Below, piece by piece: positions 4,689 through 42,249 of a DNA stretch of 64,000 nucleotides. The position numbers and the translations under genes are program-made. The stretch comes from Gammaproteobacteria bacterium (GTDB lineage Bacteria; Pseudomonadota; Gammaproteobacteria; Burkholderiales; Burkholderiaceae_C): positions 186,001 through 250,000 of the forward strand of contig JAHIYE010000020.1 of the NCBI GenBank assembly GCA_018815325.1. The letters run 5' to 3'. The notes below the pieces were generated by a model that saw nothing but the letters and a program-made list of their open reading frames with translations, made no database searches and was not told where the DNA came from. Numbering within the stretch: position 1 is the first letter of the stretch; the number at the start of each line of letters is the position of its first letter.

Positions 4689-5771
4689 ATGCCACTGTCC
4701 AAACGCACCACCCTGACGCAATTCCTGATCGAGGAGCGCAGACGCTTCCCCGATGCGAGCGGCGACTTCAATGCCCTGATCCTGGATGTCGCCTTGGCCT
4801 GCAAGGCCATTGCCCGTACCGTGGCTTTTGGTGAGCTGGGGGGCGTGCTGGGCAACCACGCTGCAGATGCGGGAGGCTCGGTGAACGTGCAGGGCGAAAC
4901 ACAGAAGAAGCTTGACGTGCTGAGCAACGACGTGTTCATCCGTCTGACCGAGTGGGGTGGTCACCTGGCGGGCATGGCCTCTGAAGAGATGGATCTGCCC
5001 TACCAGATTCCCGGCAAATACCCGCGGGGCAAATACCTGCTGGTGTTCGATCCGCTCGATGGTTCGTCGAACATTGATGTCAACGTGTCGGTGGGCAGCA
5101 TTTTTTCCGTGTTGCGCGCACCCGAGTCGGGTCGCGACATGGCCGAGGCCGATTTTTTCCAGCCAGGGGCGCAGCAGGTGGCCGCTGGTTACGCCTTGTA
5201 CGGCCCGACCACCATGCTGATTCTCACGGTGGGCAATGGCGTCAACGGCTTTACGCTCGACCCCAACCTGGGCGAGTTCATGCTCACGCACCCGCAACTG
5301 AAGATTCCGCAAGATACCCAGGAATTTGCCATCAACGCTTCCAACAGCCGTTTCTGGGAGCCGCCTGTCAAACGCTATGTGGACGAATGCCTGGCTGGCA
5401 AGACCGGTGTGCGGGGCAAGGATTTCAACATGCGATGGATTGCCTCGATGGTGGCTGAAGCGCACCGCATCCTGATGCGCGGCGGTGTGTTTCTCTATCC
5501 GCGTGACAGCAAGGATGCCGCCAAGCCGGGTCGTCTGCGCTTGCTGTACGAGGCCAATCCGGTGGGCTTCATCATGGAGCAGGCCGGTGGTCGCGCCAGT
5601 ACCGGCAGTCAGCCTGTGCTGGGCGTGGTGCCCACATCGCTGCATCAACGCATCGGTCTGGTGTTCGGCTCCAAGAACGAAGTCGAGCGTATCGAGCGCT
5701 ACCACGCTGAGCCAGCGCGACAAGAGTCAGGCACCCCATTGTTTGCGGAGCGCAGCCTGTTTCGCAACTGA
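4689..5771 (+). CDS. cbbF: Fructose-1,6-bisphosphatase class I
   Basis: 360-residue class I FBPase that makes fructose-6-phosphate (and acts on sedoheptulose bisphosphate in many autotrophs). The metal and substrate motif [10 protein letters not shown] is intact, followed by the YALYGPTTM and RYVDECLAG regions typical of the family. The start at 4689 has a purine-rich site (GAGAGA) upstream. Part of the regeneration half of the Calvin cycle encoded by this operon. Confidence 0.96.
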
Positions 5772-5827
5772 GTGCACCGCACTTGCTGTGCACACGAACC
5801 GAATTTAAATCTCTGCAGGAACTCGCC

Positions 5828-6712
5828 ATGTCTGAACGTCATCCCATCATCGCCATCACTGGCTCCTCCGGCGCAGGAACCACTTCGGTGACCCGCACCT
5901 TTGAGAACATCTTCCGTCGTGAGAGTGTGCACGCCGCCGTTATCGAGGGCGACAGCTTTCACCGCTACGACCGCAAGGAAATGAAGCTGCGCATGGCCGA
6001 GGCCGAGAAGGCCGGTAACAACAACTTCAGCCACTTCGGCCCCGAGAACAACCTGTTTGCCGAACTGGCTGAGCTGTTCCGCTCGTATGGCGAGGTGGGC
6101 AATGGTCAACGCCGCAAATACCTGCACGACACCGAAGAGGCCGCACCTTACAAGCAGGAGCCTGGTACCTTCACCCCCTGGGAGCAGCTGCCAGCCGACA
6201 CGGACCTGCTGTTCTATGAGGGGTTGCATGGTGCGGTCATCACCCCGGAGGTGAATATTGCCCAGCACCCCGACCTGCTGATCGGTGTGGTGCCCGTCAT
6301 CAACCTGGAGTGGATCCAGAAACTCTGGCGTGACAAATCCAAGCGAGGTTACTCGACCGAGGCGGTGACAGACACCATCCTGCGCCGCATGCCGGACTAT
6401 GTGAACTACATCTGCCCGCAGTTTGCGCATACGCATGTGAACTTCCAGCGTGTGCCCACGGTGGACACGTCGAATCCCTTCATCGCGCGTGACATCCCGG
6501 CGCCCGATGAAAGCATGGTGGTGATCCGCTTTTCCAATCCCAAGGGCATCGACTTCCCTTACCTGCTCAACATGATCAATGACTCCTTCATGTCGCGTGC
6601 CAACACGGTTGTGGTGCCCGGCGGCAAGATGGAGCTGGCCATGCAGCTGATCTTCACGCCCTTTGTGTGGCGCATGATGGAGCGCCGCAAGCGTGCGCTG
6701 GGAGGGGCTTGA
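5828..6712 (+). CDS. cbbP: Phosphoribulokinase
   Basis: Class I bacterial phosphoribulokinase, 294 residues, converting ribulose-5-phosphate to ribulose-1,5-bisphosphate with ATP. P-loop GSSGAGTT is at 12-19, followed by [10 protein letters not shown] and FYEGLHG motifs. The ATG at 5828 is preferred to the upstream in-frame ATG at 5783 because of the GCAGGA site before it and because the P-loop is then at the family position. Two bases separate its stop from the transketolase start. Confidence 0.97.
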
Positions 6713-13001: not shown

Positions 13002-13310
13002 TTGAAACTGGTTTCCATCCTCATGACATCTGCCCTGCTGGTGTCTGCCCCCGCATTCGCGAACAAAGAGCTGGCCCAAAAGAACGCCTGCCTGGCCTGC
13101 CATGCCGTTGACAAGAAACTCGTGGGTCCGTCTTACCAGGACATCGCGAAGAAATACGCCGGCCAGAAAGATGCAGAGGCCATGCTGGTGGCCAGCATCA
13201 AGAAGGGTGGCTCGGGCAAGTGGGGCCCGATCCCGATGCCGGCTCAGGCCGCCTTGAGCGATGCGGATGCGCATACGCTGGCTGCCTGGGTGCTGGCTGG
13301 CGCCAAGTAA
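13002..13310 (+). CDS. Small periplasmic monoheme cytochrome c (c551/c5-like)
   Basis: 102 residues starting at TTG (13002) after a TGGAG site. Signal peptide to about residue 20 (APAFA), heme motif CLACH at 30-34 and a likely axial methionine in PIPMPAQ. The mature protein closely matches the C-terminal heme domain of SoxD in this window (for example DKKLVGPSYQDIAKKYAG against DKKIVGPSFMDIAKKHAG). It lies between the cbb and sox genes and is a plausible electron acceptor for sulfur oxidation. A strong terminator follows. Confidence 0.92.
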   Translation: MKLVSILMTSALLVSAPAFANKELAQKNACLACHAVDKKLVGPSYQDIAKKYAGQKDAEAMLVASIKKGGSGKWGPIPMPAQAALSDADAHTLAAWVLAGAK

Positions 13311-13383
13311 ATTCCGGGGCAAGGGACTCCGGCTGAATCAGACGCGTTTGTTCTGATCGCGGAAGCTCCGCCTCCAACTCATC

Positions 13384-13410
13384 AAGGGCCCACCACAGGT
13401 GGGCCTTTTT
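13384..13410 (+). terminator. Intrinsic terminator after the small cytochrome gene
   Basis: Perfect 8-bp stem GGCCCACC/GGTGGGCC with loop ACA (13387-13405), followed by TTTTT. Confidence 0.85.
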
Positions 13411-13473
13411 CATGCCTGTATCGAAGGTCTGCTTGCGACGCATTCGTCAGGCCCGGATGGCATTCCCAGGTGA

Positions 13474-13791
13474 TCAGCCGAATTTCTCAAGAATACGTGC
13501 GGTGCGCTCGACCTCGCCAATGGCTTGGGCACTGGATTCCGAGTCATAGACAGCCTCCATGACCGAGCAGGTCATCATCCTGTAGAAAGTCTTGTCCATC
13601 GCCTTGCGAGCTGCAGACATTTGCAGCGCCACTTCCTCGCAAGATCTTCCGCTATGGATCATCTCCACCAAGCCTCGTACCTGGCCCTCGATGCGGCGCA
13701 AGCGGTTGACGACATCTTTCTGGTGTTCCTCACGATACGTCGAAGTAGGTGCCGGAGGGGCTGATTTGCTCGTGGTTTTCTTGGTTGCCAT
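13474..13791 (-). CDS. CsoR/FrmR-family (DUF156) metal- or thiol-sensing repressor
   Basis: 105 residues, all-helical family of copper, nickel, formaldehyde or persulfide sensors that bind DNA as tetramers. After a Lys/Pro-rich tail of about 20 residues comes RLRRIEGQVRGLVEMI, typical of the family. Cysteines are at 51 and 75 only. No histidine occurs at the second sensor position where CsoR and FrmR types carry one, so a cysteine-only sensor is possible. It is transcribed away from the DUF302 and FadL genes, with two operator-like repeats between. The ligand is unknown. Confidence 0.85.
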   Translation of the reverse strand: MATKKTTSKSAPPAPTSTYREEHQKDVVNRLRRIEGQVRGLVEMIHSGRSCEEVALQMSAARKAMDKTFYRMMTCSVMEAVYDSESSAQAIGEVERTARILEKFG

Positions 13792-13873
13792 GCGAATTGG
13801 ATGTTGTGGTGTTTGAGGGCCGCCGGGGTGGCAGATGGCTGTTTCTGCGGGGAAGCGGAGCGAGTTATGTATT

Positions 13874-13928
13874 TATACCGCAGTGCGGGGGGTAGGGTAA
13901 TTTCTTATACCTAGGGGGGTAGGGTATA
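13874..13928. promoter_or_regulatory. Twin CsoR-type operator-like repeats
   Basis: GGGGGGTAGGGTA occurs twice (13887-13899 and 13914-13926), 27 bases apart, each preceded by TATACC (13874-13879 and 13906-13911). The second unit ends GGTATA, giving TATACC-N11-GGTATA. TACC/GGTA arms around a G/C run resemble published CsoR-family operators. They lie between the repressor gene and the DUF302 gene. Confidence 0.6.
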
Positions 13929-14055
13929 GGGTTCATCCTAATGGCAACACAAGGTTTGTTCGGCACGATGCATTCCATGGCAGTTGGTTCCGGTATCAGG
14001 GGCCAATATTTTTTTGAAGCCCATCCCGGCATTTGATTGGTAAAGGAATTCATTC

Positions 14056-14628
14056 GTGATCATTTTTAAAAAAGCCCTCGTGTTGTTGTCCCTGGCAGCG
14101 ACCGTATTTCTGACCGGCTGCGGAACTATCAGCACCATGGGCAAGCTGGAAGACGGCGCGGGTGCCGAGGCCAGCAAGATGTGGGATCGCTGGGTTGATG
14201 CTGAGGGCGATATCGCCGTCGCCACAACCTGGGAGCGCAAGGTCAAGCCTGGCCTGACGGTAGAAGACATCGAAACGGTTTTCGCCCAGGTGGCAACCGA
14301 GCGCAACATGCGCAGCGTGGGCGAGCTGCCCCTGTCAAAAGAACTGGAGTCACGCTCAGGCAAGAAAGAGAAATTCCTCAAGGTCTACTCGTATTGCTCG
14401 CCGACCACGGCTCGCAAGATGGTCGACTTCAGTCCGCACATGGCAGCCTACCTGCCTTGCCGTCTCTCGGTCGTGGAGAAGGAAGACGGCCTGTGGATTT
14501 ACACGCTGAACATGGACATGATGGTCAAGATGGGCCGCAAGCTGCCGTCCCCATTGAAGGAAGAGGCTTGGGCTGTGCGCGAAACCATCTACCAGATGAT
14601 GACCCGTGCGGCCAATGGTGAGTTTTGA
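14056..14628 (+). CDS. DUF302-family lipoprotein
   Basis: 190 residues from a GTG start with AAGGAAT upstream. The signal sequence ends in a lipobox LTGC (Cys21), so the protein should be lipid-anchored. The region from about residue 60 resembles DUF302, a small alpha/beta domain of unknown function. Two cysteines (CSPTTARK and LPCRLSV) lie in the mature part. It is followed 55 bases later by a FadL-type porin and sits behind the twin operator repeats, so probably both genes respond to the CsoR-like repressor. Function unknown. Confidence 0.8.
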   Translation: MIIFKKALVLLSLAATVFLTGCGTISTMGKLEDGAGAEASKMWDRWVDAEGDIAVATTWERKVKPGLTVEDIETVFAQVATERNMRSVGELPLSKELESRSGKKEKFLKVYSYCSPTTARKMVDFSPHMAAYLPCRLSVVEKEDGLWIYTLNMDMMVKMGRKLPSPLKEEAWAVRETIYQMMTRAANGEF

Positions 14629-14683
14629 GTAGGTTGGGTAGTCAGTTTTCTAAATTTTTAATATAAGTCGGAGACAACTAATC

Positions 14684-15949
14684 GTGGGTAAATCTAAAAG
14701 TATTCGCAATGCCGCCATCGCGGCGGTCATTGCCGGCCCGCTGACGGCGGCCATGGCCACCAATGGCTATTTCTCGCATGGCTATGGCATGAAAGCCAAG
14801 GGCATGGGTGGAGTTGGCATCGCATTGCCACAGGACGCCATGGCGGCAGCCACTAATCCAGCCGGTATGGTGGACGTGGGAAGTCGTATCGATTTTGGTG
14901 TTGATTTGTTTATGCCTGATCGGACGGTAACGTATACATCTGCATATCAAGGTGTGGCGGCAGGTGATTACCGAAGTGGGCAACGTAGCTTTCTGGTTCC
15001 AGACTTTGCATACAACCGCATGATTGGTAGCGATATGGCAGCTGGTGTTGTTGTGTACGGCAATGGCGGTATGAATACCAACTATGGCACTAACCTCATC
15101 ACCTCAAGCGGCTCCAACACGTACACGAATTTAGAGCAATTGTTCATTGCGCCGACGATTTCCAAGAAAGTTGGTGACAACTCCTTTGGTTTATCACTCA
15201 ACATGATCCGGCAGACATTTGAGGCGAAAGGTTTGGAGGCTTTCGACAACACTAACAACAGTCGTTATGTCGGCTCCGTCACCAACAAAGGTGAGGATGT
15301 ATCGACTGGTTTTGGTTTGAAATTCGGTTGGTCAGGGCAGGTGTCGCCAACCGTCACCCTTGGGGCCGTATATCAAACTCGCAGCAAGATGTCCAAGTTT
15401 GATAAATACAAAGGTCTTTTGGCGGAAGAAGGTGGGTTTGATATTCCAGAGAATTTTGGTTTTGGTATTGCGATCAAAGCAACGCCTAAAACTACTGTTG
15501 CCGCTGATCTCAGCCGCATCAACTATGGCAGCATCAACTCTCTTGCAAATCCAGGAACCGTATTCCCTGCTGTATCGGGTACCCCCATGGGTCCGGCCAA
15601 TGGTTCGGGATTCGGGTGGAGAGACATGACGGTATTCAAGATTGGTGTGTCGCATGAATACAGCAAGAACCTAACGGTTCGCGCTGGATACAACTACGCC
15701 CAGATGCCCATTACCAGTCAGAACACTTATTTCAATATCTTGGCGCCTGCTACGGTTGAGCAGCATCTAACGTTGGGTGCTACGTGGACGTTGGACAACA
15801 AGTCTGAGTTGACCATGAGCTATATGCATGCGTTTAACAAGACTATTGATGGAGTTGCCAATGGCAATGGTCAAACAGTTCCAGGCTATCCGGTGAACCT
15901 CAGCATGAAACAGAACGCCATTGGTGTTGCCTACGGCTGGAAGTTCTAA
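14684..15949 (+). CDS. FadL/OmpP1-type outer-membrane transport protein
   Basis: 421 residues from GTG at 14684 (GGAG upstream). After a signal peptide ending near AMA, the mature N-terminus starts TNGYFSHGYGMKAKGMGG, leading to the NPAGM signature of the FadL/TodX family of 14-strand barrels for hydrophobic compounds; it ends in an aromatic residue (GWKF) as outer-membrane barrels do. From about 14,880 on, third positions are much richer in A/T than in neighbouring genes. The substrate is unknown; the sulfur context suggests a hydrophobic sulfur species, which is inference. Confidence 0.87.
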   Translation: MGKSKSIRNAAIAAVIAGPLTAAMATNGYFSHGYGMKAKGMGGVGIALPQDAMAAATNPAGMVDVGSRIDFGVDLFMPDRTVTYTSAYQGVAAGDYRSGQRSFLVPDFAYNRMIGSDMAAGVVVYGNGGMNTNYGTNLITSSGSNTYTNLEQLFIAPTISKKVGDNSFGLSLNMIRQTFEAKGLEAFDNTNNSRYVGSVTNKGEDVSTGFGLKFGWSGQVSPTVTLGAVYQTRSKMSKFDKYKGLLAEEGGFDIPENFGFGIAIKATPKTTVAADLSRINYGSINSLANPGTVFPAVSGTPMGPANGSGFGWRDMTVFKIGVSHEYSKNLTVRAGYNYAQMPITSQNTYFNILAPATVEQHLTLGATWTLDNKSELTMSYMHAFNKTIDGVANGNGQTVPGYPVNLSMKQNAIGVAYGWKF

Positions 15950-15962
15950 GCGCTCTCGGGAT

Positions 15963-15991
15963 TGGGTTCAGGGTGAGAGCTCTCAACCCAT
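15963..15991 (+). terminator. Possible terminator hairpin after the FadL-type gene
   Basis: GGGTGAGAG/CTCTCAACCC (15971-15989) forms a near-perfect dyad, alternatively extended by TGGGTT/AACCCA. Only a short T run follows, so termination is uncertain. Confidence 0.4.
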
Positions 15992-16163
15992 TTCTGCACT
16001 GGAAAAATGTTTCTAGGCAAATTGGCAGAATATCGGCGGCATGAATTGACATGTTGATTGGAATAGGGAGAAGCCAAGCTGATGGTCTATAGCAAACGCC
16101 TTGCGGCATCGGATGCCTAACAAGGGATTGCATGAGATGGATGCTTCCTGTACGCTTATTTTT

Positions 16164-16481
16164 ATGAACAAGTTAATTTTTTTTCTTGCCCTTTCTCTGT
16201 TTCTGGGTACGGCAGGCGCCCAAATTCCGGCCCTGTACCACGGGGCGGATCTGAAACTCGGCGAGAAGCTGATTGCAGACAACAAGTGCGCAGCTTGCCA
16301 CCAGCAAAAAGTGGGCGGAGATGGCAGTGCGATCTACCGGCCCGCAGGTCGAATCAACACCGCCGGCGCTTTGCGGGGCATGGTGGAGCAATGCAATACG
16401 ATGCTCAACCTGGGACTTTTCCCGGACGAGGTGAACTCGATCGCAGCCGTTCTGAACCGTGACCACTACCGTTTCAAGTAG
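16164..16481 (+). CDS. Small exported monoheme cytochrome c
   Basis: 105 residues from MNKLIFF, with a signal peptide ending GTAGA and a mature domain of about 85 residues carrying CAACH and an extra cysteine (VEQCN). An in-frame ATG at 16137 with a better AGGGA site would add nine residues before the signal; I prefer 16164 because it gives a normal signal peptide. It lies 86 bases upstream of the ArsR-type regulator and soxCD, so it is probably a sox-associated electron carrier. I do not recognise a named family. Confidence 0.8.
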   Translation: MNKLIFFLALSLFLGTAGAQIPALYHGADLKLGEKLIADNKCAACHQQKVGGDGSAIYRPAGRINTAGALRGMVEQCNTMLNLGLFPDEVNSIAAVLNRDHYRFK

Positions 16482-16567
16482 CGCTTTCGCCAGCAAGGAG
16501 GTTAGTAAAAACCCTAGGTTCGAATTTCTGTTTGCGCTATATATTAGTACATTCGGATATTATTATC

Positions 16568-16912
16568 ATGCGATTGAATGATGAGACTACTTCCCTGATG
16601 TCCTTGCGGGTCTATGAGCGTGCTGCTGAACTGTTTGGTTTGCTGGCTACGCCCATCCGGCTTCGCATCATCAGTGCCCTGTGCCAGGGGGAGCGGAACG
16701 TGACGCAATTGCTGAGCCAGATAGAGACGGCGCAACCCAATATCTCGCAGCATCTGAACATGCTGTATCGATCCGGGGTGCTGACAAAGCGGCGCAGTGG
16801 CGCACAGGTGTTTTATCGCATTGCGGATGATTCTGCGGTGCTGGTATGCAAGGCGGTCTGCTCGCAGATTGCCAGGGAAATGGAACAGGACTGCAAGGTG
16901 CATGCGGGCTGA
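16568..16912 (+). CDS. soxR: ArsR-family repressor, SoxR-like
   Basis: 114-residue winged-helix regulator: ELFGLLATPIRLRIISALC, then QPNISQHLNMLYRSGVL recognition helix and the RRSGAQVFYRI wing. Position immediately upstream of soxC, and a cysteine in the ALCQGER helix plus C-terminal cysteines (VLVCKAVC), fit the SoxR/SqrR/BigR group that sense persulfides with two distant cysteines. The start at 16568 is chosen; a TTG start at 16532 is also possible. This is not the unrelated MerR-type redox SoxR of enterobacteria. Confidence 0.83.
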   Translation: MRLNDETTSLMSLRVYERAAELFGLLATPIRLRIISALCQGERNVTQLLSQIETAQPNISQHLNMLYRSGVLTKRRSGAQVFYRIADDSAVLVCKAVCSQIAREMEQDCKVHAG

Positions 16913-16975: not shown

Positions 16976-18340
16976 GTGAAACAACAAGACTTGAGCTCAG
17001 GAAGGATCCTCAAGGCGCCCGAGAGCTTTTTGAGCAGGGACGGGATCAAGACCGTGTTCGCAGAAGCCCGTGCCGGGCGTCGCGACTTTATCCGCAATGC
17101 GTTTGCCGCTGCCGCTGCAGGTGTGGCGGCACCGGTGGCGATGGCACAAGGCAACCCGGTGCCTGTCGAGGGCGGAGATCCCAATATCCTGACTCTGCCG
17201 ACACACAGCACCAGTCTGGGTCAAGGCGTGGCGACCGAGGGGTATGGCAAGCCTTCACAGTTCGAGGCCAATGTACAGCGTCGTCAGAGCCCGGGTCTGA
17301 CTCAGACCACGCAGGCCTCTGTGTCGTTTGCGCCTTTGCAGTCGTTGTTCGGTATCGTGACGCCGAGTGGTCTGCACTTCGAGCGTCACCATCAGGGCTG
17401 GTGGGACATCGACCCCTCCAAGCATCGCTTCATGATCAACGGCATGGTGAAGTCGCCCCGCGTCTTCACGGTTGATGAAATCATGCGCTTGCCTTCCGTT
17501 TCGCGTTTCCACTTCATTGAGTGTGGTGCGAACACGGCGGTGGACTGGGGCAATGTGGCTGTGCCTACGGTGCAGTACACCCACGGCATGGTTTCATGCA
17601 GCGAGTTCACGGGAGTGCCGCTGATCACGTTGCTGGAGATGGCCGGTGCAGACCTGAAAAATGGCAAGTTCGTGCTGGCTGAAGGCGCCGATGGTTCTTC
17701 GATGACCCGTACCATCCCCATGAGTCTGATCAAGTCAGGCGAGGTCTTTGTGGCCTACGGTCAGAACGGTGAAATGCTGCGGCCAGAGCAGGGTTACCCG
17801 CTGCGCCTGATTGTGCCGGGTGTGCAGGGGGTGAGCTGGGTCAAGTACCTGCGTCGCATTGAAGTAGGCGACAAGCCTTATGCGACCAAGGATGAGGCGG
17901 TGCACTACATCGACCTGCAGCCCGATGGACAGCATCGCCAGTACACCAGCATCCAGGAGTGCAAGAGTGTCGTGACCACACCCTCAGGCGGTCAGGTACT
18001 GCTGGACAAGGGCTTCTACAACATCAGTGGTCTGGCCTGGTCCGGTCGCGGCAAGGTCAAGCGCGTGGATGTTTCGGTGGATGGTGGGCGCAACTGGCGC
18101 ACGGCGCGTCTTGAGTCGCCTGTGTTGTCCAAGGCACTTACCCGCTTCAATATTGACTGGGTCTGGGACGGCAAGCCTGCCATTGTGCAAAGCCGTGCCA
18201 TGGATGAAACCGGCTACGTGCAACCCAATTACAAGCAGCTGCGTTCTGTTCGCGGTACGCGCTCGATCTATCACAACAATGCCATCCAGTCGTGGTTGGT
18301 GCAGGAAAATGGCGAGGTGAAAAATGTCCAGGTTTCGTAA
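16976..18340 (+). CDS. soxC: Sulfane dehydrogenase SoxC, molybdenum subunit
   Basis: 454-residue molybdopterin protein of the sulfite oxidase family. With SoxD it oxidises the sulfane sulfur on SoxY by six electrons. GTG start with AAAGGAA upstream. A twin-arginine signal (RRDF at 35-38) lies unusually far in, behind a 34-residue leader. The molybdenum-ligand cysteine is C183 in HFIECGAN, and the dimerisation domain follows. The 3' end overlaps soxD by 17 bases. Presence of SoxCD predicts full oxidation of thiosulfate to sulfate without stored sulfur globules. Confidence 0.96.
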   Translation: MKQQDLSSGRILKAPESFLSRDGIKTVFAEARAGRRDFIRNAFAAAAAGVAAPVAMAQGNPVPVEGGDPNILTLPTHSTSLGQGVATEGYGKPSQFEANVQRRQSPGLTQTTQASVSFAPLQSLFGIVTPSGLHFERHHQGWWDIDPSKHRFMINGMVKSPRVFTVDEIMRLPSVSRFHFIECGANTAVDWGNVAVPTVQYTHGMVSCSEFTGVPLITLLEMAGADLKNGKFVLAEGADGSSMTRTIPMSLIKSGEVFVAYGQNGEMLRPEQGYPLRLIVPGVQGVSWVKYLRRIEVGDKPYATKDEAVHYIDLQPDGQHRQYTSIQECKSVVTTPSGGQVLLDKGFYNISGLAWSGRGKVKRVDVSVDGGRNWRTARLESPVLSKALTRFNIDWVWDGKPAIVQSRAMDETGYVQPNYKQLRSVRGTRSIYHNNAIQSWLVQENGEVKNVQVS

Positions 18341-19436
18341 AGCCGTACTGAGCGCTGCATTGCTTGCTGTGGCAGGCTTCGCCGGCGCGCAGACCAACAG
18401 CAAATACCCGGGAGTGGGCCGTGCTGCGACTCAGAAAGAAGTCGCTGCATGGGATATCGATGTGCGTCCGGACTTCAAGGGTTTGCCAGCAGGTTCGGGC
18501 ACCGTGGCCAAAGGCCAGGAGGTCTGGGAAGGCAAGTGCGCACATTGCCATGGCTTTTTTGGCGAGTCGGGCGAAGTCTTCAGCCCGCTGGTGGGGGGCG
18601 TCACGCCGGAAGACATCAAGACCGGTCATGTCGCCAACCTGAAAAATACGAGCTATCCTGGGCGCACGACCATGATGAAGGTGGCTACGGTGTCGACCCT
18701 GTGGGACTACATCAACCGCGCCATGCCCTGGACGGCTCCCAAGTCGCTCAGCACGGAAGAGGTTTACGCGGTGACGGCATTTTTGCTGAATCTCAGCGGC
18801 ATCGTGCCGGACAACTACACCTTGTCCGACAAGAACATCGCAGACGTTCGTATGCCTAACCGCAACGGCATGACGACCAAGCATGCGATGTGGCCAGGAA
18901 ATGAGTTTGACGGCGTCAAAAAGCCCGACACCCAAAATACCGCGTGCATGAAGGACTGTGCGCCTGAGGCCAAGGTGGCTTCGTTCCTGCCTGATTTTGC
19001 ACGCAATGCACACGGCAATCTGGCTGAGCAGAACCGTCCCGTGGGTGCCCAGCGCGGAGTTGATACCACCAAGCCTGAGGGCAAGGACCTGAACGCAGAG
19101 CGTATCAGTCAGCAGTCTGCAGCTCCCAAGGCGGCAGAGCCTGCAGCCAAAGCTGCCGCACCCAAGACGGATGCGTCTGGCATTGACAGCAAGGCGGCAA
19201 TGGCCTTGACGTCAAAATACAGCTGTACAGCCTGCCATGGCGTTGACAAAAAGATTGTTGGCCCCAGTTTCATGGACATTGCCAAGAAACATGCTGGCAA
19301 AGCAGATTATCTCGCCGGGAAAATAAAATCGGGTGGTGTCGGGGTCTGGGGGCCAATCCCCATGCCCGCACAGACATTGAGCGATGCAGAAGCCAGGACC
19401 ATTGGTGCGTGGCTGGCTTCTGGTGCGGGAAAATGA
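18324..19436 (+). CDS. soxD: SoxD diheme cytochrome c subunit of sulfane dehydrogenase
   Basis: 370 residues with signal peptide (AGFAGA) and two heme motifs: CAHCH in the N-terminal SoxD domain and CTACH in a C-terminal c551-like domain. The domains are joined by an Ala/Pro/Lys-rich linker (about residues 265-290). It takes electrons from SoxC. The start lies inside the soxC 3' end (overlap 17 bases), indicating translational coupling. The C-terminal domain is nearly a copy of the free cytochrome at 13002-13310. Confidence 0.95.
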   Translation: MSRFRKAVLSAALLAVAGFAGAQTNSKYPGVGRAATQKEVAAWDIDVRPDFKGLPAGSGTVAKGQEVWEGKCAHCHGFFGESGEVFSPLVGGVTPEDIKTGHVANLKNTSYPGRTTMMKVATVSTLWDYINRAMPWTAPKSLSTEEVYAVTAFLLNLSGIVPDNYTLSDKNIADVRMPNRNGMTTKHAMWPGNEFDGVKKPDTQNTACMKDCAPEAKVASFLPDFARNAHGNLAEQNRPVGAQRGVDTTKPEGKDLNAERISQQSAAPKAAEPAAKAAAPKTDASGIDSKAAMALTSKYSCTACHGVDKKIVGPSFMDIAKKHAGKADYLAGKIKSGGVGVWGPIPMPAQTLSDAEARTIGAWLASGAGK

Positions 19437-19507
19437 GGGGTTAGGGATATTACGAATGCACAGCTTTTATTCTTTTCATTAGCATTGACTTATCAAGGAG
19501 ACTGAAT

Positions 19508-19966
19508 ATGCAAACTCGTCGCGAGACACTCAAGCAGAGCGCTATCGTTGCTGGCCTGCTGGCATCCACGGGCCTGTTCCCGCAATATGCCATGGCGGCC
19601 TATAACAAGGCCGCTTTCGAAGCCAAGACCCTGGCGGAAGTCCTGAAAGCCCTGGGCGCTGGCGCTCACATGGAAAGCAAGGACATCAGCATTGGTGGCC
19701 CGGACATCGCTGAAAACGGCGCCGTGGTGCCGCTGACGGCCAGCACTGCGCTGCCTGGCGTCAAGCACATGCTGTTGCTGGTGGAGAAAAACCCCGCCGC
19801 TCTGGCAGCCCTGTTCAATGTGACGGACAGCGTGGAGGCGAACTTCGCCACCCGCGTCAAGATGGGCCAGTCCTCGGACGTCTACGCTGTTGCCGTGATG
19901 GCAGACGGCAAAGCCTTGTTCGCCAAGAAAGAAGTCAAGGTTACCCTTGGCGGCTGCGGCGGCTGA
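19508..19966 (+). CDS. soxY: Sulfur carrier subunit SoxY
   Basis: 152 residues with a Tat signal (TRRETLKQSAIVAG) and the C-terminal swinging arm GGCGG, whose cysteine (C150) carries the sulfur intermediates through the Sox cycle. AAGGAG precedes the ATG. It pairs with SoxZ 48 bases downstream. The length and arm match the family exactly. Confidence 0.97.
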   Translation: MQTRRETLKQSAIVAGLLASTGLFPQYAMAAYNKAAFEAKTLAEVLKALGAGAHMESKDISIGGPDIAENGAVVPLTASTALPGVKHMLLLVEKNPAALAALFNVTDSVEANFATRVKMGQSSDVYAVAVMADGKALFAKKEVKVTLGGCGG

Positions 19967-41433: not shown

Positions 41434-41455
41434 CATATACCATGCAGGGTATATG
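41434..41455. promoter_or_regulatory. Operator-like palindrome upstream of the DUF4395 gene
   Basis: CATATACC-N6-GGTATATG is a perfect inverted repeat with 8-base arms, about 80 bases before the DUF4395 start codon. Its TATACC/GGTATA arms equal those near the CsoR-like repressor gene at 13.9 kb. Confidence 0.6.
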
Positions 41456-41535: not shown

Positions 41536-42249
41536 ATGTCATTCAATATTTCATCCATCACAGACGTCTTCAAGCATCTCTGGTTCAGGGATTCTGCCGA
41601 TGACACGATCTGGATCAACGACACGGCTGTGCGTATTCGTGCGGGGATTCTGTTGGCCATTCCGCTCTACATGGGCCTGACGCTGTTCAACGCCATCTAT
41701 GGCTCTCATTGGATCGTGACAGGCAATGCCATCCGGGATACTTTCGACACGGATTTTGACGGGCACATTCTCTACAGCGTCGAAGCGATCCGGCGCACGC
41801 TGGAATACTCGACGCAGACGTATGTGCTCTGGTATGGCTTGTTTGAAATGCTGTCGGGCATGTTCCGCTTTACTTCCAGGCTGTCGCCAACCATCCTGAT
41901 CAGCAGCTTTCTGGCCAAACGCCTTGAGCCTGTCTGGAAGCCCCTGACGCCCAAGCGCTTTGCCTGGACCATTGGGGCGAGTTTCATTACGGTGTGTCTG
42001 ATTTTCTTCAATCCGGAAGTTTTTGCCGGTTGGGTGAACAGCTTGTTTGGAACACAGTTGTTGCCGACCACCAGTAACTACATGCCCAGATGGATTCCGC
42101 TGGTGCTGGTCTGGGTCTGTTTTGGCTTCATGTGGATGGAAACCGTGCTCGGATTCTGTGCGGGCTGCAAGGTCCATTCGCTGTTCGTGCGCATGGGCTT
42201 GTTGCAGGAAGAGTGCGAGGCCTGCAACAACCTCAGTTGGGGAAAATGA
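41536..42249 (+). CDS. DUF4395-like integral membrane protein
   Basis: 237 residues with about four membrane segments. INDTAVRIRAGILLAIPLY, TPKRFAWTIGASFITV and the end METVLGFCAGCKVHSL match the DUF4395 pattern, a family often seen with sulfur-transfer proteins. Extra cysteines lie in the C-terminal tail (ECEACNN). The ATG at 41536 follows AGAGGAGAG; upstream in-frame starts would add an unlikely leader. A methyltransferase gene follows after 16 bases. Function unknown. Confidence 0.75.
   Translation: MSFNISSITDVFKHLWFRDSADDTIWINDTAVRIRAGILLAIPLYMGLTLFNAIYGSHWIVTGNAIRDTFDTDFDGHILYSVEAIRRTLEYSTQTYVLWYGLFEMLSGMFRFTSRLSPTILISSFLAKRLEPVWKPLTPKRFAWTIGASFITVCLIFFNPEVFAGWVNSLFGTQLLPTTSNYMPRWIPLVLVWVCFGFMWMETVLGFCAGCKVHSLFVRMGLLQEECEACNNLSWGK

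Follow-up and report, generated by a model that had tools for sequence, protein, structure and literature searches.

A predicted CsoR-family operator for an outer-membrane lipoprotein and a porin encoded next to thiosulfate-oxidation genes

The locus and its repeated G-rich sequence

The window, that is, the whole 64,000-nt stretch of DNA that was analysed, carries on its minus strand a gene for a CsoR-family (DUF156) regulator of 105 aa with Cys51 and Cys75 (13474..13791; PF02583, E 1.2e-18). Divergent from it, on the plus strand, lie a gene for a DUF302 protein (14056..14628; PF03625, E 2.7e-11), which starts with GTG and shows by eye the lipobox LTGC, and a gene for a FadL/TodX-family outer-membrane porin (14684..15949; PF03349, E 2.9e-28). 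The same strand continues with a small cytochrome c (16101..16481; PF00034, barely above the cut-off), an ArsR-family regulator (16532..16912; PF01022, with a match to the BigR model below its cut-off), soxC (16976-18340, within 16976..19966), a cytochrome gene in the soxD position (18324-19436), which no soxD model matched, and soxY (19508-19966). TIGR04555 and TIGR04488 score above cut-off in the soxC-soxY stretch, and more sox-like genes can be seen by eye downstream of soxY. The three genes from soxC to soxY are possible targets of read-through from the lipoprotein-porin operon; soxC and soxY lie downstream on the same strand here, and many lipoprotein loci have no sox match in the DNA searched.

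An earlier note on this DNA had described an exact 13-base repeat with 27-base spacing between the regulator and the lipoprotein gene. The 13-mer GGGGGGTAGGGTA is indeed present exactly at 13887-13899 (copy 1) and 13914-13926 (copy 2), 27 nt from start to start, and at no further place in the 3.86-Mb genome, where the remaining 19 matches of the scan carry 2 mismatches and a reversed control pattern gives 84 matches. At ≤2 mismatches, the window holds three matches where shuffles would give 0.61, and the two exact matches are copies 1 and 2. TATACC stands before each unit (13874-13879 and 13906-13911) and GGTATA ends the second (13923-13928), again as described, though the gap from TATACC to the G-run is 7 nt in copy 1 and 2 nt in copy 2. 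Because of this difference, only copy 2 forms a compact dyad, TATACC-N11-GGTATA (13906..13928), and this 23-bp dyad is matched in none of 100 shuffles and at no other place in the window at ≤3 mismatches. A genome scan for TATACC-N5..11-GGTATA, the check suggested with the repeat, returns two places, the putative operator described here and 41436-41453 of the window.

Within the outer dyad lies the predicted operator core TACCTAGGGGGGTAGGGTA (13908..13926), the window version of TACCCTA-N5-TAGGGTA, which differs from it at 3/14 arm positions, pairs at 4/7 in the 19-bp frame and is among the less regular sites. Copy 1 with its TATACC (13874..13899) has the exact right arm GGGGGGTAGGGTA but is 5 nt wider than copy 2 and matches at 1/7 dyad pairs; by its sequence it is a degenerate half-site without a proper left arm. 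None of these three features is assigned a strand. Directly adjacent, on the plus strand, is the element TAGGGTTCATCCTAATG (13927..13943), with one window match vs 0.02 expected and one exact place in the genome; judged by eye, it is kept in relatives, including some loci without the regulator. A sigma-70 scan of 13400-16600 found no promoter vs 2.8 expected, so none is assigned; a column consensus for two subgroups, which comprise 18/36 loci, brought no decision on a -10-like TAnnnT about 30 nt past the operator or on a CCNATG element.

A perfect 8+8 dyad, CATATACC-N6-GGTATATG, is found at 41434-41455 (0.02 expected), upstream of two genes, one for a DUF4395 protein (41536-42249) and one for a methyltransferase. 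Of 299 family genomes, six, spread over four genera, encode the DUF4395 protein, and all six are among the 23/299 genomes with the DUF302 lipoprotein (p 1e-7); in two of the six, about 10 kb separates the DUF4395 gene from the DUF302 gene. None of the other five DUF4395 genomes has the dyad, and we take it as a lead, and no more, to a second target in the source genome.

A conserved palindrome and its link to the lipoprotein gene

The best 80 of 94 relatives of the regulator were taken for comparison (loci L039-L118). What their upstream regions conserve is not a duplicated site but a single palindrome of 19 bp, TACCCTA-N5-TAGGGTA. Close relatives in the same orientation have a single element, such as TACCCTACCCCGCAGGGTATAGGG, where the window has TACCTAGGGGGGTAGGGTATAGGG, and the centre of the palindrome is mostly C5 on the window strand in relatives and G in the window. 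By this alignment, copy 2 is the right half of the conserved palindrome, and copy 1 is a copy of that half. The 13-mer GGGGGGTAGGGTA occurs in 0/80 of the related upstream regions, and at the lipoprotein loci of this set with a site at ≤2 mismatches, the 45 nt that precede the best site contain no arm. The duplicated G-rich operator proposed in the earlier note thus finds no support, as relatives keep a single palindrome and copy 1 lacks a left arm. The other part of that proposal, a predicted CsoR-type operator with a CsoR-family regulator encoded directly divergent from it and the lipoprotein-porin pair on its other side, holds up.

The palindrome is strongly tied to the DUF302 gene. Among the 79 loci of this set with at least 300 bp upstream (L090 was dropped), the regulator has a DUF302 gene as its neighbour in 38 and lacks this neighbour in 41; with ≤2 mismatches allowed, the palindrome stands upstream of the regulator in 34/38 and 2/41, respectively, with a Fisher value of 1.5e-15 that overstates the association because related loci are not independent. 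Shuffled upstream regions reached the palindrome score in 1 of 7900 cases. On the regulator tree, which has few columns and many open forks, the DUF302-neighbour label changes 20 times, at least six of them on well-supported branches. Each of the six exceptions to the pairing has an account. Among the four DUF302 loci without the palindrome, both arms have changed together with the dyad kept in L042 and the dyad is rearranged in L052 (both by eye), and the DUF302 genes of L059 and L109 are broken. L089, which has the palindrome and was counted as lacking DUF302, carries a remnant of DUF302 joined to the porin. In L047, the DUF302 and porin genes are missing, and the palindrome precedes a weak cytochrome remnant (E 0.007) and soxC, a case that is weak because it comes from a metagenome assembly. 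The L047 operator lies directly before these two genes in the stretch 5500-6020.

A second sampling of 399 family genomes, which is not independent because some sites and their flanks equal those of the first set (e.g., L128 and L043), found the regulator in 39, the DUF302 lipoprotein in 28 and both in 15 (p 7e-10). The palindrome stands upstream of the regulator in 10 of the 15 shared genomes at ≤2 mismatches and in 12 at ≤3 mismatches, the window included, and at ≤2 mismatches in none of the 15 regulator-only genomes read (of 24 such). An exact palindrome occurs in 1/299 family genomes, and there it lies between the regulator and the lipoprotein gene. Thirteen genomes have DUF302 and no regulator orthologue at E 1e-22, their best relative being 44% identical; for two of the 13, completeness is below or close to 90%, and the absence of the regulator is thus uncertain. 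At the lipoprotein operons, the palindrome is present in 10/15 with an adjacent regulator vs 2/12 without one (p 0.019), a count that omits G270, whose sole match is a distant soxY-linked gene.

Since the palindrome tracks the lipoprotein gene and the exceptions can be accounted for, we assign the site to the lipoprotein-porin promoter, where it probably binds the adjacent CsoR-family regulator. Autoregulation of the csoR gene through the palindrome is disfavoured, as 39 of the 41 loci that lack the lipoprotein gene lack the site too (best 80 of 94). The genomes of 27 of these 41 loci were searched, and 26 lack the palindrome at ≤1 mismatch anywhere; the single match (L155) has none of the twelve query genes in the 2 kb around it. 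The regulator must therefore have other targets or other sites in those genomes. In the source genome, the palindrome at ≤3 mismatches gives 14 places vs 74 per strand for the reversed control, and TACCY-N9-RGGTA gives 5 vs 12, so that no regulon rises above noise.

Further elements were observed in these upstream regions. L049 and L051 have a second whole palindrome 78 bp from the first, between the regulator and the lipoprotein gene, and L050 has a weaker one about 70 bp away; these second palindromes have the G-tract on the lipoprotein strand. Double sites thus do arise in the group, in a form other than that of the window. Of the 38 lipoprotein loci among the best 80 of 94, nine (L054, L064, L073, L074, L077, L085, L092, L105 and L118) have an FNR-like box, TTGA[TC]-N4-[AG]TCAA, which stands between operator and lipoprotein gene. 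In 46 of these 80 loci, the 150 bp upstream of the regulator contain TGTGCCA, of which the window carries an altered form and which is perhaps part of the regulator's own promoter.

The regulator, its likely signal and rival explanations

The regulator belongs to the CsoR/RcnR (DUF156) family, with a PF02583 (Trns_repr_metal) match of 67.7 bits vs a cut-off of 22.8. Cys51 is present in 81/81 orthologue sequences and Cys75 in 75/81, being missing in six. On an ungapped alignment to InrS, the position of the metal-ligand His is Ser or Thr and that of the second Cys ligand is Ala or Ser in all 81, so the Cys-His-Cys ligand set of copper CsoR is absent, and Cys75 stands one residue ahead of the His position. 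The top solved-structure match, 6ahx, aligns with a 4-residue gap that would shift Cys75 next to the usual Cys; the ungapped reading is favoured by the Pfam match, which is equal in length on both sides. With the His and the second Cys ligand replaced, usual metal sensing is unlikely.

The paralogues point toward sulfur. Of 19 paralogues read, which are 34-52% identical, 17 share the 24 spacing of the Cys pair. At least one of three neighbours, a lactamase-rhodanese fusion, a sulfur transporter or OsmC, is found at 18 of 25 paralogue loci (11 with a neighbour like the fusion of L159, which we take to be of the persulfide-dioxygenase type, five with a YeeE-type transporter piece and six with OsmC), the neighbour queries having come from two of the same 25 loci. 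Such neighbourhoods, by themselves, make sulfane sulfur the likeliest signal of the regulator, a proposal that we hold less firmly than the operator assignment. The paralogues adjoining the lactamase-rhodanese gene are those of L159, L020, L022, L024, L019, L158, L160, L161, L036, L014 and L025; some also adjoin a YeeE-type sulfur transporter, and most have the displaced Cys pair. CsoR-family paralogues with the same Cys spacing adjoin OsmC in L037 (in the source genome itself, contig 13), L015, L016, L038, L162 and L163. Upstream of paralogues, 14-bp dyads of the form TACCC-N4-GGGTA or similar are seen in L022, L024, L013 and L012, and a TA[CT]C...G[GA]TA dyad is absent in 16 of the 23 paralogue upstream regions scanned.

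These observations suggest that the outer-membrane lipoprotein and the porin, whose genes adjoin those of thiosulfate oxidation, are probably under the control of a CsoR-family repressor. In the mechanism that we propose, the reduced regulator, probably in the form of two tetramers, would bind the 19-bp dyad (13908-13926) and keep the lipoprotein-porin operon off, with an effect possibly reading on into sox. Sulfane sulfur or persulfide accumulating during thiosulfate or sulfur oxidation would modify Cys51, with or without Cys75, the regulator would release the DNA, and the lipoprotein-porin pair would be made. Copy 1 (13887-13899) would be a lineage-specific half-site that may add slight affinity. 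We have reasonable, if moderate, confidence that the palindrome serves the promoter of the DUF302 lipoprotein and the FadL porin as its operator, with CsoR-family repression relieved by sulfane sulfur, and more confidence in the narrower reading that it is a protein-binding operator of this promoter.

The protein that binds the palindrome could instead be a different regulator, such as the ArsR-family one encoded at 16532-16912 or some activator, the CsoR-family gene being a mere neighbour. We consider this rather unlikely. L133 and L137 keep the palindrome with no regulator orthologue found in the genome, most of the regulator-bearing genomes searched have no palindrome, and the adjacent element, TAGGG...CCNAT (13927-13943 in the window), persists, by eye, without regulator or palindrome (e.g., L129, L136 and L140), so that this stretch may also serve a second factor or the promoter itself. 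However, the TAC/GTA arms around a G/C tract resemble CsoR-family sites as described in the available part of PMC3902906, and among lipoprotein operons the palindrome goes with the regulator, as counted above. A true tandem operator, in which copies 1 and 2 bind the regulator on opposite faces for stronger or looped repression, is unlikely. The exactness of the 13-base repeat, the two palindromes in L049 and L051 and the tandem type 1 sites reported for RcnR (PMC3902906, in part) speak for it, but copy 1 lacks the left arm and occurs in 0/80 related upstream regions (best 80 of 94). In the sections consulted of two papers, moreover, TTHA1953 binding is 10- to 15-fold weaker with one base more or fewer between the arms (PMC10318464), and a half-site gave no detectable binding of Streptomyces CsoR (PMC3902906).

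Control of the porin for metal reasons, by a conventional CsoR/RcnR sensor of copper or nickel, would fit the family membership and the matches to the RicR, FrmR and RcnR models, all of them weak and falling far short of the cut-off. The substituted His and second Cys ligand positions in 81/81 orthologues on the ungapped alignment and the neighbouring sox genes make this very improbable. Least credible of all is a nucleic-acid structure, G-quadruplex or RNA leader, in place of a protein site: five G-runs lie on one strand in the window, but relatives mostly have a C-tract on the same strand with the dyad arms kept, on which ground a G-quadruplex was rejected, and an Rfam search of 13300-14700 gave only two matches, both far below the gathering score and rejected.

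The predicted operator is real and conserved as a site, new in its details and of a kind already known. If the CsoR-family reading is true, a regulator-operator pair with other Cys positions and other site spacing has been kept in betaproteobacteria, and it offers a handle both on two unexplained outer-envelope genes tied to thiosulfate oxidation, those of the DUF302 lipoprotein and the FadL porin, and on how a CsoR fold might sense sulfur with only one invariant Cys. A wider proposal, which we put forward tentatively and with more doubt than confidence, is that the regulator here exemplifies a subclass of CsoR whose Cys pair is displaced and whose operator is a 19-bp site of three tracts. In Comamonadaceae and their kin, this subclass would control a module of DUF302 lipoprotein and FadL porin that handles extracellular or zero-valent sulfur, and in the source genome it would also control the DUF4395-methyltransferase operon through the dyad at 41434-41455.

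Comparison with known systems

Among the titles and abstract openings covered, no report was found that joins a CsoR-family regulator with a DUF302 lipoprotein-FadL porin pair. CstR of Staphylococcus and Enterococcus is a persulfide-sensing CsoR-family repressor with Cys31/Cys60 at the classical places. The regulator here shares with CstR the family, the small Cys-based sensor and the sulfur-gene neighbourhood, but its second Cys is displaced and not invariant; the gapped 6ahx alignment would lessen this displacement.

The closest known system is TTHA1953, which the available part of PMC10318464 describes as a CsoR-family sox repressor of Thermus thermophilus HB8 with the 20-bp consensus TACNNTACNNNNGTANNGTA and with Cys39 and Cys68, 29 apart. 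Both systems have a CsoR-family repressor tied to sox, two Cys and a palindrome with two TA steps per half. They differ in that the TTHA1953 site is 20 bp without a G-tract and the site here is 19 bp with a G/C tract, in the Cys spacing of 29 vs 24 for Cys51/Cys75, and in the place of the targets, since the regulon of TTHA1953 lies far from its gene and the target here is divergent from the regulator. By eye, one half of the 19-bp consensus here fits TACNNTAC and the other half is one base off.

The portions of PMC3902906 available to us describe type 2 operators of Streptomyces lividans CsoR as TAC-N9-GTA and the RcnR type 1 operator as TACT-G6-N-AGTA. As in the Streptomyces lividans sites, a TAC/GTA dyad flanks G/C tracts here, but the outer dyad is TAC-N13-GTA and the copper ligands are absent. 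Two tetramers of Streptomyces CsoR are reported on one operator (PMC3902906), so two tetramers need no duplication. The tandem operators of E. coli RcnR resemble the window in the G6 tract and in having two units next to each other; for RcnR, both are whole TACT-G6-N-AGTA sites, whereas the window has one whole site and one half, and TACCTAGGGGGGTAGGGTA does not fit the type 1 form. By the spacings published in these parts of the two papers, the predicted operator is of neither type 1, type 2 nor TTHA1953 type.

DUF302 proteins have also been noted, without a function, in the sox clusters of Acidithiobacillia (PMC5037610, PMC5248467, each in the part available). These proteins, like the one here, are about 190 aa and tied to sox genes. 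In Acidithiobacillia, DUF302 is flanked by soxA and soxB and the clusters lack soxCD, whereas the DUF302 lipoprotein here is paired with a porin and has soxC downstream.
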